64,000 nucleotides of DNA from Pyxidicoccus trucidator (lineage in GTDB: Bacteria > Myxococcota > Myxococcia > Myxococcales > Myxococcaceae): NCBI RefSeq assembly GCF_010894435.1, contig NZ_JAAIXZ010000014.1:62001-126000 (forward strand), given 5' to 3'. The notes below the pieces were generated by a model that did not search any database, was not told the DNA's origin, and worked only from the letters and a program-made list of their open reading frames with translations. Both the position numbers and the translations under genes were made by a program. Position 1 is the stretch's first letter, and the number at the start of each line of letters is the position of its first letter. This document shows, one piece after another, positions 24,676 to 55,407 of the stretch.

Positions 24676-27663
24676 CTACCGGATCTCAGCCGCGAGGGGG
24701 GAAGAGTGTGACAACAGCCATTTCGAGACCTGGGCGTGCTTCCGCTCCTGGCCAATATTTCCGTAATGGTCGCGGGCCTGGGTGGCCAGGTCCAGGGCGC
24801 GAGCCCGGTCGGTGTTCGCCTCCCAGAGTGCCCGGGCCAGGGCCCACCGGGCCTCGGCGCGGGCGCGGAAGGGGATGTGCGTGAGCGAGCGCTCGAGGAG
24901 CGGCACGGCCAGGGCGGGCTGGTTGCGGGAGAGGTGCAGCTCGCCCAAGCCGAGCAGCGCCTGGGCGAGGAGCCTGGGGGCTGTGGTCTGGAGCTGCTCC
25001 CCGGTGGCCCGGGCCCGCTGGAGGTGCTGGAGGGCTTCGTCCCACCGTCCCAGCCGCACCAGCGTCTGGCCCAGCAGCGCGGACACGTGGGCGGCGTCGG
25101 TGGGGTCGCCGTCCTCCACCTTCTCGTGCAGCGCCAGGGCGAGGGCGAGCTCCTCCCTCGCCCGTGCATCCTGGCCGAGGGCGGCCCGCACCTCGCCGAG
25201 GCTGGTGTGTGAGCTGGCGACGCTGGGGTGCTGCGAGCCCAGCGTCTCCTGCCTCAGCGCGAGCGCGCGCTCATGGTGCGCCAGCGCCGCTTCCAGGTGT
25301 CCCCGGGCGAGCAGGACGTCGCCCAGGTTGGCGAGCGAGGACGCCACCATGGGGTGATCGGGCCCGAGCAGCTTCTGGCGCATGGTGAGGGAGCGCTCGT
25401 ACAGCGCCTGGGCCTGCGCGTACTCGCCCAGCTCCTCGTGGACGATGCCCAGGTTGTTGAGCGTCACGGCGACGGACGGGTGCTCGGCGCCGAACAGCTT
25501 CTGCTTCAGCGCCAGGGTGCGCTCGAAGTGCCCCCGGGCCTCGGCGTACCGCCCCTGGTCCATGAGCACGTTGCCGAGGCTGTTGAGCAGGCTCGTGAGG
25601 TTGACGCTCTCCGGATTCGGAGCCTTCTCCATGAGGGCCAGCGCGCGCTCGTAGTGCCCGAGGGCCAGGGCATGGTCGCCCTTCATCCAGCGCACGTTGC
25701 CCAGCGTCTCCAGCGCCTGGGCGAGCTGCTGCTCGTCACCGAGGCGCTCGGCGGAGGCCATCAGCGGCAGCTCCAGCCACAGCGCTTCCGCGTAGCGGGC
25801 CTGCCGCGCGCCCACCTCGGTGACGAGGAAGCTCCACGCGCGCGCTTCCAGCAAGGCGTCCCGGCCGCGCGCCGCCAGCACCAGCACCTCGCGCAGCAGG
25901 GCCTCGGCGCCCTTGTAGTCGCCGTCGCCGTCCAGGTGCATGGCGTGCCAGAAGAGCGTCTGCCCCTGGGCCGGGGCGTAGCCCAGCGTCGCGAGCCGGG
26001 GCCGCAGCTCCTCGGCGAAGGCCAGGCCTTCCTTGAAGCGGCCGGCGCGGTGGAGCGCCTCCAGCCGGTCCTCCAGGGGCTGGAAGGCCTCGACGCGGGC
26101 CCGCACCGCCGGGTCCTCGGGAGGCGGCACCACGGCGGTGAGCAGGCGCGTGTCCGAGCAGTCACTCAGGAGCGGCAGCGACTGAACGGCCGGCGCCGCC
26201 TTGTCCACCAGCTTCGGGTCCGGCTCGCGCGCGAGTAGCTCCGTGAGCGCGCCGAGCTGGCCGCGCCGCCGCTCCAGGCAGTACTCCCGCAGGGCCGCCA
26301 GCCGCTGGGGCTGCGCCGCGCCGTCCTGCCGCGCCAGCTCACACGCCTCGGTCCGCTGCTTCACCCACTCCTCCGAGTACGCGCTCAGCATCCGCGACAC
26401 GCGCTCGAAGGCGTCCTTCTCCCGCGCCTGCCCCGGGCCGACCATGGCCGTCTCCAGCCGCGCCCGGAGCCGCGCATCCCAGACGCCCGCCAGCCGTTCC
26501 TCCATGCCGACGCAGGCGGAGACCGGGGCCTCCTGGCGCACCCAGCCCCAGATGGCGGCCACGCCCAGCAGGGCCACGCCGCTTGCGAGCGCCCCGGCGC
26601 GCAGCAGCGCCCGCCGCCGCTGCTCCGGGTCGTTCTCCAGCTCCAGCAGCAGCTCGCGCATGGAGCCCGGGCGCTGGAGCGGGTCGGCCTTCAGCCCTCG
26701 CAGGACGGCCCGCGCCACCCAGGCGGGCACCTCGCTCTGCGTTGGAGGGGGGAGGATGCGCTCGTCGAGCCGCGCCTCGAGGATGGCGCCGAAGGTGTCG
26801 CCCGCGAAGGGCCTCGTGCCGTAGAGGGCCTCGTAGAGCGCCACGCAGAAGCCGTACAAGTCACTGCGCGCGTCGACGGCGCGGCCCTGGAGTTGCTCGG
26901 GGGCCATGTAGCGCGGCGTGCCCAGCACCTTGCCGGACTCGGTGAGGGGCTCCAGCCACGTCCGCGGCTGCGAGCGCTCCAGGGGCTCGGGACCCTCGGG
27001 CTCCGAGGTGAGGCCGTGCGCGGCCTGCGCCAGCCCGAAGTCCGTCACCCGGACGCGTCCGTCCGCGCCGACCAGCACGTTGTCCGGCTTGAAGTCGCGG
27101 TGGACGAGCCCCGCCGCATGCGCCGCCGTCAGGCCCCGGCCCGCGTCCAGGAAGGCGCGCAGCACCTCGCGCCACGTGCGGGGCCGCTGCTTGAGCCACT
27201 GCTGCAGCGTCTGCCCCTCCACGTACTCCATGGCGATGAAGACGGAGTCGTCCTCCAGTCGCCCCGAGTCGTAGACGTGCACCACGTTGGGGTGGTTGAG
27301 GCGCGCCATCGCCTGCGCCTCGCGGAGCAGGCGCACCTGGGCGGCGTCGCTGTCGTCGAGGCTCCAGATGGGGCGCAGCAGCTTGACGGCCACGCGCCGG
27401 TTCAGCCGCGCGTCATACGCGGAGAGGACGAGCCCCATGCCGCCGTGCCCCAGCACGTCGAGCACCGTGTAGCGCTCCGCCAACACCCGCCCCGGAGGCG
27501 GCGAGGCGACGGCAGGCCCCGTGCGGATGGAGTCCACCGTCAGTCCCGAGGTCGGCCGCGCGGAGTCCACCCCGCCCGGGGCGGCGGGCCCCAGGGTAAG
27601 CGTCACCTCTGGAATGTCGGAGTCGGGCGCCCCCCCGGGCCGGTGAGGACTCATGTCCGACAC
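24676..27663 (-). CDS. Transmembrane Ser/Thr protein kinase with kinesin-light-chain-type TPRs
   Basis: 995 aa from GTG 27663. The kinase domain spans about 64-345: glycine loop LGHGGMGLV, Lys94, catalytic HRDFKPDN (188-195), DFG 208-210, APEQLQGRAVDARSDLYGF. One membrane helix (about 353-375) separates it from a long extracytoplasmic part with at least four 42-residue TPR units (NNLGIVHEELGEYAQAQALY and similar). It starts 18 bp after the pyruvate carboxylase stop and ends 45 bp before the activator gene, so the three may be co-transcribed. The activating stimulus is unknown. Confidence 0.9.
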   Translation of the reverse strand: MSDMSPHRPGGAPDSDIPEVTLTLGPAAPGGVDSARPTSGLTVDSIRTGPAVASPPPGRVLAERYTVLDVLGHGGMGLVLSAYDARLNRRVAVKLLRPIWSLDDSDAAQVRLLREAQAMARLNHPNVVHVYDSGRLEDDSVFIAMEYVEGQTLQQWLKQRPRTWREVLRAFLDAGRGLTAAHAAGLVHRDFKPDNVLVGADGRVRVTDFGLAQAAHGLTSEPEGPEPLERSQPRTWLEPLTESGKVLGTPRYMAPEQLQGRAVDARSDLYGFCVALYEALYGTRPFAGDTFGAILEARLDERILPPPTQSEVPAWVARAVLRGLKADPLQRPGSMRELLLELENDPEQRRRALLRAGALASGVALLGVAAIWGWVRQEAPVSACVGMEERLAGVWDARLRARLETAMVGPGQAREKDAFERVSRMLSAYSEEWVKQRTEACELARQDGAAQPQRLAALREYCLERRRGQLGALTELLAREPDPKLVDKAAPAVQSLPLLSDCSDTRLLTAVVPPPEDPAVRARVEAFQPLEDRLEALHRAGRFKEGLAFAEELRPRLATLGYAPAQGQTLFWHAMHLDGDGDYKGAEALLREVLVLAARGRDALLEARAWSFLVTEVGARQARYAEALWLELPLMASAERLGDEQQLAQALETLGNVRWMKGDHALALGHYERALALMEKAPNPESVNLTSLLNSLGNVLMDQGRYAEARGHFERTLALKQKLFGAEHPSVAVTLNNLGIVHEELGEYAQAQALYERSLTMRQKLLGPDHPMVASSLANLGDVLLARGHLEAALAHHERALALRQETLGSQHPSVASSHTSLGEVRAALGQDARAREELALALALHEKVEDGDPTDAAHVSALLGQTLVRLGRWDEALQHLQRARATGEQLQTTAPRLLAQALLGLGELHLSRNQPALAVPLLERSLTHIPFRARAEARWALARALWEANTDRARALDLATQARDHYGNIGQERKHAQVSKWLLSHSSPLAAEIR

Positions 27664-36848: not shown

Positions 36849-37144
36849 TTCCTACCTGAACAAGGCTTCAGCCATTCTTCCGGAGGGGCGCCAGGCTCGC
36901 CGCGCCGCCTGCGCACGGGGCAGGGAAGCCCATGCCTACATCGTCGGACATCCAGGCAAGGGACGGAACTCACGGCTCCGGGCAGGAAGGGCAATGCCTA
37001 CCTGAACGAACCTTCAGCCAGTTTTCAGGCGCTCGCGGGGCGTGCAGGGAAGGAGGCGTGCCTACCTGAACGAGTCTTCAGCCAGTTTCCAGGCCGCCGT
37101 GCGGGGAGCCGGAAAGGGCCGTGCCTACATGAACGAACCTTCAG
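36849..37144. repeat. Array of ~64-bp units, each with a CTGAA-N6-TTCAG dyad
   Basis: The marker TGCCTAC (TTCCTAC in the first) begins at 36849, 36931, 36995, 37059 and 37122, so steps are 82, 64, 64 and 63. In four units it leads into an inverted repeat: 36856-36871 (centre CAAGGC), 37002-37017 (CGAACC), 37066-37081 (CGAGTC) and 37129-37144 (arm reads ATGAA; CGAACC). The unit at 36931 has lost the dyad. GCAGGGAAGG-like bases precede TGCCTAC in most units. The arms are kept while the centre varies, as expected of a protein-binding site, and the step is near six helical turns. Confidence 0.7.
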
Positions 37145-46794: not shown

Positions 46795-47373
46795 ATGGCG
46801 AAGGACAGCAGCGCGGCGAAGGCCCGGCCCATGCGGGCGCGCATCCTGGAGCGGCTCGCGACGCCCACCACGGCGGCGGCGCTCTCGCGCGAGCTGGACA
46901 CGTCGCGGCAGAAGGTGGGCTACCACCTGCGCGAGCTGGAGCAGCAGGGCCTGGTCGAGCTGGTCGAGGAGCGCCGCAAGGGCAACGTGGTGGAGCGGCT
47001 GGTGAAGGCCAGCTCGCGCGCGTACCTCGTGTCCGCCGAGGCGCTGGCCTCGCTGGCCCCGGACCCCGCCGCCGCGGTGGACCGCTTCTCGTCGGCCTAC
47101 CTCATCGCCGTCGCGGCCCGGAGCGTGAGGGAGGTGGCCACCCTGCGAGAGCGCGCGCAGCAGGCGGGCAAGACGCTGCCGACCTTCTCCCTCCAGGCCG
47201 ACGTGCGCTTCGCCAACGCGAAGGCACGACATGCCTTCGCCGAGGAGCTGGCGGACACCGTCGGCCGCCTCGTCGCCCGCTACCACGATGAAAGAGTCGA
47301 GGGAGGGCGCCACTACCGCCTCTTCCTCGGCGTCCACCCCGCAGCCGCCCCCGAGAAGGAGAGCCCCGAGTGA
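46795..47373 (+). CDS. Winged-helix (ArsR-like) transcriptional regulator
   Basis: 192 aa. Short N-terminus then a winged helix: ARILERLATPTTAAALSREL, recognition helix DTSRQKVGYHLRELEQQGLV and wing EERRKGNVVERLVKA. The C-terminal 100 residues are helical and may bind a ligand. No metal-binding Cys pattern is present, so it is not a classical metal sensor. No Shine-Dalgarno is seen; the promoter layout predicts a leaderless mRNA. It overlaps the next gene by GTGA and leads the run that ends with the PAP2/isoprenoid synthase fusion. Confidence 0.85.
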   Translation: MAKDSSAAKARPMRARILERLATPTTAAALSRELDTSRQKVGYHLRELEQQGLVELVEERRKGNVVERLVKASSRAYLVSAEALASLAPDPAAAVDRFSSAYLIAVAARSVREVATLRERAQQAGKTLPTFSLQADVRFANAKARHAFAEELADTVGRLVARYHDERVEGGRHYRLFLGVHPAAAPEKESPE

Positions 47374-48146
47374 GCCAGGAGAAGACGCGCAGTCTCGAGA
47401 AGCAGGTGAAGATCAAGGCCCCTCGCGACGCCGTCTGGCGCGCGATTACCGAGGCCGACCAGATTGTCCGCTGGTTCGCGCTCGACGCGAAGGTGAAGCC
47501 GGGCGTCGGCGGCTTCGTGTGGCTGAGCTGGCCGGGCATGGCGGGCGAGGAGCGCATCGACGTCTGGGAGCAGGGGACGCACTTCCGGACGAGCAACCCC
47601 GCCCGGCCTCAAGTCGCCACCGACTGGTACGTGGAAGGCGAGGGCGGTGAGACGACGCTCCGGCTCGTGCACTCCGGCTTTGGCGAGGGCGCGGACTGGG
47701 ATGCCGAGTACGACTCGCTGGACCGCGGCTGGTCCGTGTTCTTCCAGAACCTCAAGCACATGCTGGAGCGGCATCCGGGCGCTCCCGGGCAGCAGGTGAT
47801 GGTGCCCGTGCCAGTGGGGAACGTCGGACTGGAACAGGCGTGGCAGTGCCTGCTGGGGCCGGGCGTGCTCGGCCTGGAGCGCACCGGCGAGCGGACCTTC
47901 AAGGCCCGCTCCGTCACGGGCGAGGCGCTGGAAGGGGAGGTGGACCTGTGGATGCCGCCTCGTGCGCTCGGCATCACCGTGAAGAACTGGAACGACGCGC
48001 GCTTCACCGTGGACATCAACGGGTGCGACGGCGAGGTGCGGGTCTGGGTCTGCCTGCTCACCTGGGGGCTGGATGCTCCCGCCGTCGAGGCGCTCCGCTC
48101 CCGGTGGCAGCCCGCGCTGGAAGGAATGTTCCGTCCCGCGGCGTGA
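47370..48146 (+). CDS. SRPBCC (AHSA1-like) protein
   Basis: 258 aa, GTG start overlapping the regulator stop (GTGA). The N-terminal half is an AHSA1/START-like SRPBCC fold (VKIKAPRDAVWRAITEADQI ... FQNLKHMLERHP) able to hold a hydrophobic ligand. The second half (about 145-258) looks like a second, degenerate copy ending in LRSRWQPALEGMF. An ArsR-type regulator coupled to an SRPBCC protein is a common pair; here it precedes lipid-modifying enzymes by 66 bp, which fits a role in ligand binding or transfer. Confidence 0.82.
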   Translation: MSQEKTRSLEKQVKIKAPRDAVWRAITEADQIVRWFALDAKVKPGVGGFVWLSWPGMAGEERIDVWEQGTHFRTSNPARPQVATDWYVEGEGGETTLRLVHSGFGEGADWDAEYDSLDRGWSVFFQNLKHMLERHPGAPGQQVMVPVPVGNVGLEQAWQCLLGPGVLGLERTGERTFKARSVTGEALEGEVDLWMPPRALGITVKNWNDARFTVDINGCDGEVRVWVCLLTWGLDAPAVEALRSRWQPALEGMFRPAA

Positions 48147-48212: not shown

Positions 48213-49184
48213 ATGGCGGTGAATGTCGTGGCGTGGGCGGATCCGGTCCGTCAACCCGAGCTGGGACGGCTCCGGGCGTGGCACCTCGTGTGCCCGTCCG
48301 AGTCGCTCCGGCGCGGGCAGGTGATGGGCTGGAGTCTCGGCGGGCGGGAGCTGGTCCTCTTCCGGGGACAGGGCGGCGGCGTGCATGCGCTGTCCGCCCA
48401 CTGCGCCCACATGGGCACCCACCTCGCGGGCGGCACCGTGGTGGGGGACTGCCTCCGCTGCCCGCTGCACCACTGGCGCTTCGACGGCAGCGGCGCCTGT
48501 CAGGCCGACGTGGGCGCCAGGTCCGGGCAGCGGCCGTTCCCCGTGGTGGAGCGCTTTGGCGCCATCCTCGTCTTCAACGGGCCGGTGGTCCTCTGTCCAC
48601 CGCCGGAGCTCGGCGCCGCGGACCTGATGTGGCGTGCCGGGCCCGCCGTCACCGTGCGCTGTGACTGGCTGCCCGTCCTGGCCAACTCCTTCGACATCGA
48701 GCACCTGCGCACCGTGCACCACCGCGAGCTGCGGGAGGCTCCGGTGGTGGAGCGGCCGGACCCGTTCACCCTGCGCCTGCGCTACACCTCGCGCGTCACC
48801 GGCTCCGGGCCGAGTGACTGGCTGATGAAGACGCTGTCCGGCAACCGCATCGGCGTCACCATTACGCTGCACGGCGGGACGCTCCTCTCCGTGGAGAGCG
48901 ACCTGGGACGGACGCGGAGCGCCCTGGTCGCCGGCTTCCGTAAGACGCCCGAGGGCCTGTCCGTGCGGCTGGCCTTCGCCGCGCGCCGGGGACGGGTTCC
49001 GGGGATGGACAGGCTGTCGCTCGCGGTGTCCCGGTGGCTCTTCACGTCCTTCCTGCGGCGGGACTTGTCCGTGCTCCATGACATGCGCTTCAACGCGGTC
49101 GGCGCCGCGGAGGACCCCGTCCTGAAGCAGTTGTTGGACTTCACCGCCAGCCTGCCCGAGGACCGCGATGACGAGCGAGGGTAG
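48213..49184 (+). CDS. Rieske non-haem iron oxygenase
   Basis: 323 aa. Rieske [2Fe-2S] ligands Cys64/His66 in CAHMGTH and Cys83/His86 in CPLHHW. The mononuclear iron site is visible as NSFDIEHLRTVHHREL (His164, His169). The size and single-chain plan match oxygenases acting on sterols and polycyclic lipids (KshA, cholesterol 7-desaturase/DAF-36, SdmA type) more than classical ring dioxygenases; this is inference. No reductase is adjacent. Its 3' end overlaps the desaturase by 17 bases, so the two are probably translated together. Confidence 0.88.
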   Translation: MAVNVVAWADPVRQPELGRLRAWHLVCPSESLRRGQVMGWSLGGRELVLFRGQGGGVHALSAHCAHMGTHLAGGTVVGDCLRCPLHHWRFDGSGACQADVGARSGQRPFPVVERFGAILVFNGPVVLCPPPELGAADLMWRAGPAVTVRCDWLPVLANSFDIEHLRTVHHRELREAPVVERPDPFTLRLRYTSRVTGSGPSDWLMKTLSGNRIGVTITLHGGTLLSVESDLGRTRSALVAGFRKTPEGLSVRLAFAARRGRVPGMDRLSLAVSRWLFTSFLRRDLSVLHDMRFNAVGAAEDPVLKQLLDFTASLPEDRDDERG

Positions 49185-50088
49185 GGACACGTCCATCCCC
49201 GCCACCCTCAACGTCGTGCTCCTGGCCTCCGCGCTCACCGTGGGCGCCGGGTGCCTGTGGCTGGCCTCGCACGCGGACACGTGGGCCGTGCGGCTGCTGG
49301 CGGCCGTGGGGTTCTCCTTCGTGAACAACACCGTGTTCTCGCTGCTCCACGAGGCGACGCACGGGGTGCTCCACCCATCGCGCCGGGTGAATGACGGGCT
49401 CGGGCGCGTGGCGGCGGCGCTGTTTCCGACGTCCTTCACCATGCAGCGGGCCTTCCACCTCAACCACCACCGCCACAACCGGACGCGGCTGGAGCAGTTC
49501 GACTACTTCCGGCCCGGGGACAACCGCTTCCTGAAGCGCGCGCAGTGGTACTCCATCCTCAGCGGCCTCTACTGGCTCTTCGTGCCGGTGGGCGCGGTGG
49601 CCTTCGCGCTCGTTCCGGGGTTGCTGCATCGGCTGCGCGGCACCGGCACCCGCTATGGCGAGCAGACCGGCGCGGACGCGTACCTGGGCCGTCTGGAGGA
49701 TGCGCCTGGCGCCGCCATCCGCTGGGAGGTGCTGCTGGCGGTGGCAGTGCAGGCCGGGCTCATGGTGGCGCTGGACCTGTCCGTGACGGGGTGGGCGCTG
49801 TGCTACGCGGCCTTCGCGGTCAACTGGAGCGGGCTCCAGTACGCGGACCATGCGTGGTCTCCGCTGCACGTCCGAGATGGGGCGTGGGACTTGCGGGTGG
49901 CCGCGCCCGTGCGGTGGCTGTTCCTCAACTACCACTACCACCGCGCGCACCACCGGCATCCCCATGTGCCGTGGCTGCACCTGGAGCGCTACGTGGATTC
50001 GAGTGTGCCCCGTCCGTCGTACCTTCGCGTCTGGCTGTCCATGTGGCGCGGGCCCCGGCCGCTGCCCGTCACGGTGGAGGAGCCATGA
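49168..50088 (+). CDS. Membrane di-iron desaturase/hydroxylase
   Basis: 306 aa. Histidine boxes HEATH (61-65), HLNHHRH (97-103) and HYHRAHH (256-262), plus a His in YADHAW near 228. At least four membrane helices. The pattern fits fatty acid desaturases and the related carotenoid ketolase/hydroxylase group. Starts inside the Rieske gene and ends in ATGA shared with the micro-ORF at 50085. Together with the isoprenoid-synthase-like fusion downstream, a terpenoid or polyprenyl substrate is as likely as a fatty acid. Confidence 0.87.
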   Translation: MTSEGRDTSIPATLNVVLLASALTVGAGCLWLASHADTWAVRLLAAVGFSFVNNTVFSLLHEATHGVLHPSRRVNDGLGRVAAALFPTSFTMQRAFHLNHHRHNRTRLEQFDYFRPGDNRFLKRAQWYSILSGLYWLFVPVGAVAFALVPGLLHRLRGTGTRYGEQTGADAYLGRLEDAPGAAIRWEVLLAVAVQAGLMVALDLSVTGWALCYAAFAVNWSGLQYADHAWSPLHVRDGAWDLRVAAPVRWLFLNYHYHRAHHRHPHVPWLHLERYVDSSVPRPSYLRVWLSMWRGPRPLPVTVEEP

Positions 50089-50156
50089 GCCAGCGCTCAG
50101 TGCTGTTCGGTCTGCCCCAGCGCAGGCCGCTTCCCGCTTCGGTGGAAACACGATGA
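50085..50156 (+). CDS. 23-residue micro-ORF resembling the N-terminus of the next gene
   Basis: ATG at 50085 overlaps the desaturase stop (ATGA), and its TGA overlaps the next gene's ATG at 50153 (ATGA). The peptide begins MSQRSVLFGLPQRR; the next protein begins MSPRPALFGLPRRE, identical at 9 of the first 14 positions, and the DNA is similar too. It may be a coupling peptide, or the remnant of a duplicated 5' end left after deletion. Both flanking overlaps are intact, which argues that its translation matters. Confidence 0.55.
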   Translation: MSQRSVLFGLPQRRPLPASVETR

Positions 50157-51670
50157 GCCCGCGCCCCGCCTTGTTCGGCCTGCCCCGCCGGGAGGAGCTG
50201 GTCCTCACCGGCTCGCTCACCGTGGGCTTCGCGCTGTTCTTCCTCGCCGTGTACGGCGGCGCGAGCTGGGTGACGGGCTTCTATTCCGGCGGCCTCCGCG
50301 TGGAGCTGCCGTTCGAGCGGCACATCCCGTTCGTCCCCGCGTGGGCGGCGGTCTACGTGAGCATGGACGTGCTGCTGCTGCTGTCGCTGCTCGTCTTCCG
50401 CACGTGGCGGGACATGGTGCCCTTCGCGCTCGCGCTGTGCGTGGAGACGGTGGTGGGCGCGGTGGGCTTCCTGGTGCTGCCCGTGGAGGTCGCCTGGCCC
50501 GCTCGCGTCGTGCACGGCGGCTGGGCCGAGGTCTTCTTCCTGGCCGACACGATGAACCTGGAGCGCAACTACCTGCCGTCGCTCCACGTGGCCTTCGCGT
50601 GCACCGCCGCGCTGGCATATGCGGAGCGCTCGGGCTGGCTGGCGCGGACGGTGTTCGGGCTGTGGGCGGCGGGCATCGCCGCGTCCACGCTGCTCATCCA
50701 CGAGCACCACCTGGTGGACGTGGTGGCGGGCGCGCTATTGGCCTGGTGGACGTGGCGGCTCGTCGCGCCCCGGGCCCGCCGTGAGGACTTCTTGAATGCG
50801 CTCCACGTGGAGGCGCTCTGTGCCCGGGAGCTGTTCCGCTTCTCCCGGCGGCACCTGCGCTACGCGCTGATTGCCCTGGCGCTCTATCGCTACTCGCTGG
50901 GCCGGTGGTGGCGCGCCGCGCGGGTGGCCCGGGTGGGGTTCTGCTTCCTCCAGCTCGTGGACGACGTGCTGGACGGAGACCGGCGCATCGAGGGCGAGCC
51001 GCTCGACTGGGTGGACGCGCTCCTGGTGGAGCTGGAGACGGGGCGCGCGCAGGACACCGGGACGGCGGCCACGCTGGGACGGGTGCTGCTGGCCAGTCTG
51101 GAAGACCGGGAGGCGCGGGGGCACGTCTTCCAGCTCATGCGCACCATGCGCGCGGACCGGGAGCGGGTGCTCGGGCGGCGGTGGCTCGGCGCCGAGGCGC
51201 TCCGTGCGCAGCACCGGGACACGTTCCGGCTCTCCGTGGACCTGATGCTGCACGTGGCCGGGGCGGGAGTGCGTGCCTCGGATGCTCCGGCGCTCATCGA
51301 CGCGTTCGGCTGGTGCTCCAGCCTGCGAGACCTGCGCGAGGACCTGGCGCAGGGGCTCTACAACGTGCCGGCCGAGGTGGCGGAGGAGGTGAGGACCGAG
51401 GGGGCGGACCCTTCGGACTGCGACGCGCTGCTCGCGTCGGCCGCCGGGCGCGCGTGGGTGGTGGGGGAGTACGCCCGTGCTCGCACGCTGTTGGATTGCT
51501 GCTCGGTGGAGCTGGCCGCCCTCGAAGGGCGCGCCGGGGTGCCACTGCTGCGGCTGTTTCACCGCTCCATCGAGAGCTTCTGGGCGAAGCGGCTCCCCCG
51601 CCGCATGCCCTTCCTTCGCGACGCGGCCCGGCTCAGGCCGTGGCCTTCCGGCGCCGCGTCCGGCCGATGA
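50153..51670 (+). CDS. Fusion of PAP2/AUR1-like lipid phosphatase and squalene/phytoene-synthase-like domain
   Basis: 505 aa. Residues about 15-205 form a multi-helix PAP2_3 domain with LPSLHVAFA (His145) and HEHHLVDVVAGALLA (His186, Asp189), the catalytic pattern of AUR1-type phosphotransferases and lipid phosphate phosphatases. Residues about 215-485 resemble head-to-head isoprenoid synthases: first Asp motif LVDDVLDGD (270-275) and second SLRDLREDLAQGLYNVP (390-406), like the RDxxED motif of squalene/phytoene synthases. Inferred job: join or bind prenyl diphosphates and remove phosphate in one chain at the membrane. Its 3' end overlaps the convergent SnoaL-like gene by 38 bases. Confidence 0.8.
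   Translation: MSPRPALFGLPRREELVLTGSLTVGFALFFLAVYGGASWVTGFYSGGLRVELPFERHIPFVPAWAAVYVSMDVLLLLSLLVFRTWRDMVPFALALCVETVVGAVGFLVLPVEVAWPARVVHGGWAEVFFLADTMNLERNYLPSLHVAFACTAALAYAERSGWLARTVFGLWAAGIAASTLLIHEHHLVDVVAGALLAWWTWRLVAPRARREDFLNALHVEALCARELFRFSRRHLRYALIALALYRYSLGRWWRAARVARVGFCFLQLVDDVLDGDRRIEGEPLDWVDALLVELETGRAQDTGTAATLGRVLLASLEDREARGHVFQLMRTMRADRERVLGRRWLGAEALRAQHRDTFRLSVDLMLHVAGAGVRASDAPALIDAFGWCSSLRDLREDLAQGLYNVPAEVAEEVRTEGADPSDCDALLASAAGRAWVVGEYARARTLLDCCSVELAALEGRAGVPLLRLFHRSIESFWAKRLPRRMPFLRDAARLRPWPSGAASGR

Positions 51671-52437: not shown

Positions 52438-55407
<2,970 letters not shown>

Follow-up and report, generated by a model that had tools for sequence, protein, structure and literature searches.

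In the genome of Pyxidicoccus trucidator, an open reading frame of only 23 codons (the micro-ORF) is wedged between a gene of the fatty acid desaturase family and a gene for a fusion protein, and its first residues copy those of the fusion protein. How such a frame arose, whether its peptide matters, and whether ribosomes use it on their way to the fusion gene are the questions addressed here. The initial annotation of this junction proposed either a duplicated 5' end that survived as a coupling peptide or the scar of a deleted paralogue. "The window" denotes the whole 64,000-nt stretch of DNA that was analysed.

Genomes, simulations and scans

The fusion protein was matched in 48 of 96 family genomes (P. 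trucidator included), at 67% identity or higher in 36 and weakly in the other 12. Junctions were counted in 35 of the 36 close matches, again including P. trucidator; genome G033, in which the match covers the C-terminal part only and the fetched stretch shows no desaturase, was left out. A scan of genome contigs returned 15 loci, one close Pyxidicoccus record (L039) among them, which contributed no new close relative, and these stand outside the junction count. For locus L009 the start was taken to be a GTG located one codon before the ATG.

Duplications were simulated in three single-copy relatives by copying, in turn, each possible unit of 40-100 nt that spans the ATGA (4087 units per relative). 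Additionally, 462,094 bases of the P. trucidator genome were crudely scanned for micro-ORFs of 10-60 codons lying between long GC3-rich ORFs with NTGA on each side.

The desaturase/fusion-gene junction

On re-reading the sequence, the coordinates, the length and both ATGA overlaps given for the micro-ORF in the initial annotation proved exact (Table 1). The micro-ORF ATG overlaps the desaturase TGA and its own TGA overlaps the fusion-gene ATG, so the 4-nt stop/start overlap that defines an ATGA-type coupled pair is present at both ends. A Pfam search with the micro-ORF peptide gave no match, and neither a tRNA gene nor a sigma-70-type promoter match was found at the site. The C-terminal part of the fusion protein (50783-51670) matched no Pfam family and had no convincing solved-structure match by sequence; its acidic motifs are, we presume, reminiscent of squalene/phytoene synthases. 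At least this domain has a close relative in 36 of the 96 family genomes.

Table 1 Features of the junction and its neighbourhood (window coordinates)
Feature	Position	Strand	Remarks
AHSA1-like protein gene	47370-48146		Upstream neighbour
Rieske-domain oxygenase-like gene	48213-49184	+	Pfam Rieske, E 1.1e-19; 17-nt overlap with desaturase start
Desaturase-family (fatty acid) gene	49168-50088	+	306 aa; TGA inside first ATGA; Pfam FA_desaturase, E 9.6e-27
Copy 1 of 68-nt tandem duplication	50057-50124	+	True desaturase tail, strong Shine-Dalgarno (SD), ATGA, micro-ORF head
Strong SD GGAGGAG, 5' of micro-ORF	50076-50082	+	From sequence; duplex energy -8.7 kcal/mol
Micro-ORF	50085-50156	+	23 codons, MSQRSVLFGLPQRRPLPASVETR and stop
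Copy 2 of 68-nt tandem duplication	50125-50192	+	Desaturase-like micro-ORF tail, weakened SD, ATGA, true fusion head
Decayed SD copy GGAAACA, 5' of fusion gene	50144-50150	+	From sequence; -5.1 kcal/mol
Fusion gene	50153-51670	+	505 aa; PAP2-like phosphatase domain (Pfam PAP2_3, E 3.3e-8) plus C-terminal domain

Tandem duplication of the junction

A direct-repeat search paired 50052-50118 with 50120-50186 (67 nt each, spacing 68, 73% identity). Laid out as two adjacent 68-nt units, the copies agree at 48 of 68 positions and differ at 20, and the self-alignment score at the junction was 27.4, against a maximum of 16.4 among 300 Markov sequences. Two adjacent direct copies thus span the ends of both genes, and the single-copy state is found in relatives, where genome G054 and the outgroup genomes have a direct overlap with no insert. 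The micro-ORF originated by tandem duplication of the whole desaturase/fusion junction. The 68-nt pair is absent from the Tandem Repeats Finder output, and three other window sites (two repeats inside proteins and one other) exceed the junction in self-match score.

The reported N-terminal likeness was upheld, 9 of the first 14 residues being those of the fusion protein and the underlying DNA repeat being far beyond chance. Beyond what had been reported, the micro-ORF end RPLPASVETR copies the desaturase end RPLPVTVEEP. By its sequence the micro-ORF is a chimera, with a front copied from the fusion-gene N-terminus and a back copied from the desaturase C-terminus. The proposed duplication consequently stands, while its restriction to a 5' end does not, since the complete stop/start junction was copied. 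The 68-nt duplication took in the last ~9 desaturase codons, the SD, the ATGA and the first ~13 codons of the fusion gene; as 68 is 2 mod 3, the frame opened by the copied fusion start continues through the copy of the desaturase end to a stop within the second ATGA. The duplicated unit was possibly 71 nt originally rather than 68; a 71-nt unit is suggested for G069 by repeat lags of 69, 68 and 71 in that genome.

Overlap chain in related genomes

An unbroken chain of stop/start overlaps leads from the desaturase to the fusion gene in all 35 genomes examined. Coupling is direct in 33 of them and runs through a micro-ORF in the other two, P. trucidator and G064; the overlap at the fusion start is NTGA throughout, with GTGA or TTGA in some. 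The G064 micro-ORF (MSGCPMRAASLPAAMEER and stop) has 18 codons with ATGA on each side and a middle unlike that of the window, and lies downstream of a desaturase that is 15 aa longer. The G064 junction (L035:1790-2010) also holds a repeat at a 53-nt lag that is 80% identical. In G069 the start codon of the copy has become ACG and a 1-nt insertion fuses the frames, and the desaturase there has gained 23 aa and ends in the same final ATGA. G079 has a small tandem repeat within the desaturase tail.

Overlap coupling is conserved and the micro-ORF peptide is not. Alignment of the junction in relatives, the check suggested in the initial annotation, therefore bears out the chain into the fusion gene and not the peptide. 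Frameshifts or stops in close relatives had been named there as evidence against the micro-ORF, and with regard to the peptide this was partly what was found (ATG to ACG plus an inserted nucleotide in G069, the stretch absent from G054).

Proposed passage of ribosomes to the fusion gene

The best reading of these data, to which we give a probability of roughly 0.65, is that the 68-nt duplication made the micro-ORF and that the micro-ORF now acts as a ribosome relay. The duplication is read directly from the two copies; the micro-ORF is putatively translated and the fusion gene putatively dependent on that translation. Ribosomes finishing the desaturase would re-initiate at 50085 by using the strong ancestral SD, read 23 meaningless codons, terminate at 50154-50156 and start anew on the fusion gene. 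The ancestral coupling would in this way be preserved over the inserted 68 nt, whatever the amino acid sequence.

In published reporter work (PMC10666635), spacings of ~20 nt nearly abolish re-initiation in E. coli and H. volcanii, and the last 15 nt of the upstream gene are enough for coupling. On these two values, one would expect coupling to suffer if 64 nt were left untranslated and to be regained through a 23-codon ORF. Counting against the relay, some E. coli constructs were coupled over longer gaps (PMC12548453). Longer-gap and SD results vary (PMC12548453).

The fusion SD in the window ranks second from the bottom in strength among the 35 (L009, at -1.5, is weaker, and that value is affected by the start chosen), while the four closest relatives (G054, G069, G064 and G079) all have -8.7. 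The window value is also near the -5.8 of many more distant relatives. The fusion start is predicted to be less folded (-34.5) than in G054 and G069 (-47.0 each), which counts against the relay; a retained weak SD together with a less folded start would make independent initiation of the fusion gene possible.

Such initiation, on the gene's own residual SD (-5.1) or by ribosomes crossing the gap, is what would be expected if the micro-ORF were an inert, unselected by-product of the duplication. This we regard as unlikely, although it deserves more weight than any of the alternatives considered below. An open ORF requires no selection, codon-level constraint is absent, and this micro-ORF occurs in one genome, G064 having a different one. 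It is harder to reconcile with a chain that is unbroken in 35 of 35 genomes, even in two relatives with indel-reshaped inserts, and with a fusion SD that has weakened while the micro-ORF SD stays strong.

Double overlaps without selection

From the retention of exact overlaps, the initial annotation had suggested selection, a suggestion that the simulations do not sustain. Units of 2 mod 3 yielded a micro-ORF ending in a second overlap in 1322/1330, 1322/1330 and 1324/1330 cases for the three relatives, so one third of duplication lengths give both exact overlaps automatically. With units of 0 mod 3 the direct coupling survived, and with units of 1 mod 3 it was almost always lost. Because some coupling was thus retained in about two thirds of random duplications, the reading frame is weak evidence of selection, and the argument from the 2 mod 3 unit length was weakened to that extent. 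The frame was still open after 18 random substitutions in 64-75% of simulations run without selection, so an open micro-ORF is no evidence of selection, and the argument from the open frame was discarded.

The single-copy relative G054 carries a perfect 8-nt direct repeat whose lag of 62 is likewise 2 mod 3, and a repeat of this kind could predispose the junction to duplication lengths of 2 mod 3. In the crude scan, nine micro-ORFs had NTGA on both sides (four of them ATGA/ATGA), some of these being false ORFs. A double overlap is therefore not rare in itself in this genome. Only the junction micro-ORF has a direct repeat, with a score of 27.4, while the other eight score no more than 10.0.

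The peptide and other origins

Compared with G054, the micro-ORF head differs nonsynonymously in 5 codons and synonymously in 2; for the true fusion head the counts are 2 and 5. The third-position excess in the micro-ORF was not significant (8/18 against G054, P 0.22; P 0.18 against G079 and 0.07 against G075). Judged on these codon comparisons, the peptide bears no sign of selection or codon-level constraint. That it is a functional micropeptide is very improbable: the frame is open and its SD strong, yet the amino acid sequence is not conserved in relatives as that of a functional small protein would be. Besides the codon pattern, the G069 counterpart has lost its start, the G064 middle differs, none is present in G054 and 31 other genomes, and Pfam offers no family.

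Descent from a full-length fusion-gene paralogue that was later deleted was suggested by the likeness in 9 of 14 N-terminal residues, and we now give it hardly any credence. The back half reproduces the desaturase end and keeps register with the 68-nt repeat, which refutes this origin; only one match to the fusion protein exists in the genome, and no second copy of its gene was found at the site in the stretches fetched around orthologues. The micro-ORF was accordingly rejected as a pseudogene remnant, which should consist of paralogue sequence alone and have its paralogue elsewhere or in related genomes. An assembly or sequencing artefact is the least credible explanation, for although the assembly is a draft in 136 contigs, the copies differ at 20 of 68 positions, unexpected for a mis-join of one sequence, and G064 and G069, whose assemblies have 1 and 2 contigs, carry expanded junctions too.

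History of the duplication

A tree of four genes (AHSA1-like, Rieske, desaturase and fusion) placed the window genome outside ((G054,G069),G064), with G079 next (support 100). The parts of the four-gene tree gave the same grouping with support of 60-100 (60 for the desaturase alone). One ancestral duplication followed by loss in G054 is the simplest story, and separate events are also allowed. A single duplication is favoured by the clade that the species with expanded junctions form, with G054 nested inside, and by divergence: 20 of 68 sites differ between the window copies, as compared with 12 of 68 between the real ends and those of G054. Against it, or neutral, are the clean loss required in G054 and five sites that both window copies share against G054. 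The G064 spacer did not significantly match any of four copied heads (P 0.07, 0.22, 0.66 and 0.11, uncorrected for four tries).

More tentatively, and with somewhat less than even confidence, the junction may be a hinge that duplicates repeatedly in the Pyxidicoccus-like clade. Tandem copying of a stop/start overlap would yield a translated relay micro-ORF in a single step. The micro-ORF would be kept in the window genome and G064, absorbed as an enzyme tail in G069 and G064, or removed in G054, always under selection for ribosome flow into the fusion gene. If true, this would be a simple route by which translated small ORFs and protein tails could arise within operons.

Comparison with known systems

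As described by Huber et al. (2019, PMC6728339; 2023, PMC10666635), ATGA termination-reinitiation coupling shares the 4-nt stop/start overlap with this junction. Here two such overlaps stand in series with a 23-codon ORF between them, all from one duplicated overlap. Short upstream "nonsense" ORFs, according to Cao et al. (2025, PMC13255528), likewise encode a peptide without function and stop beside the target start; they boost translation of the target gene, it is thought by delivering ribosomes. Those are synthetic and carry a strong ribosome binding site inside, beside the stop codon, whereas the present ORF is natural, in an operon, with a strong SD 5' of it and a decayed internal SD. The minigene upstream of txe in axe-txe (PMC8708949) is also a tiny ORF just before a start codon and raises translation in cis; unlike the window micro-ORF, it has two codons and duplicates no neighbour. 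No description of a junction duplication was found in the literature on coupling and overlaps, judged mostly by titles and the openings of abstracts.

The micro-ORF has an ordinary origin and a plausible, putative relay role within known translational coupling. It shows clearly how a doubly coupled micro-ORF, its peptide unselected, arises at once when a 4-nt gene overlap is duplicated, and is a caution that exact overlaps at both ends are not proof of a functional small protein. The relay, if true, would be a natural analogue of short-ORF designs for translation control, and a route to new enzyme tails.

Other repeats in the window

At 25200-25704, on the minus strand, a protein contains 126-nt (42-aa) repeats, which we take to resemble tetratricopeptide repeats. 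A 21-nt coding repeat (NEELqsTNEELetTKEEL.., coiled-coil-like) lies at 54512-54675 in a large plus-strand ORF (52438-55407). A tandem, non-coding-looking repeat with a unit beginning TGCCTACCTGAACGAACCTTCAGCCAGTTT occupies 36995-37117, with similar text just after, and consists of two 59-nt copies (80% identity, lag 64) plus a shorter third start.
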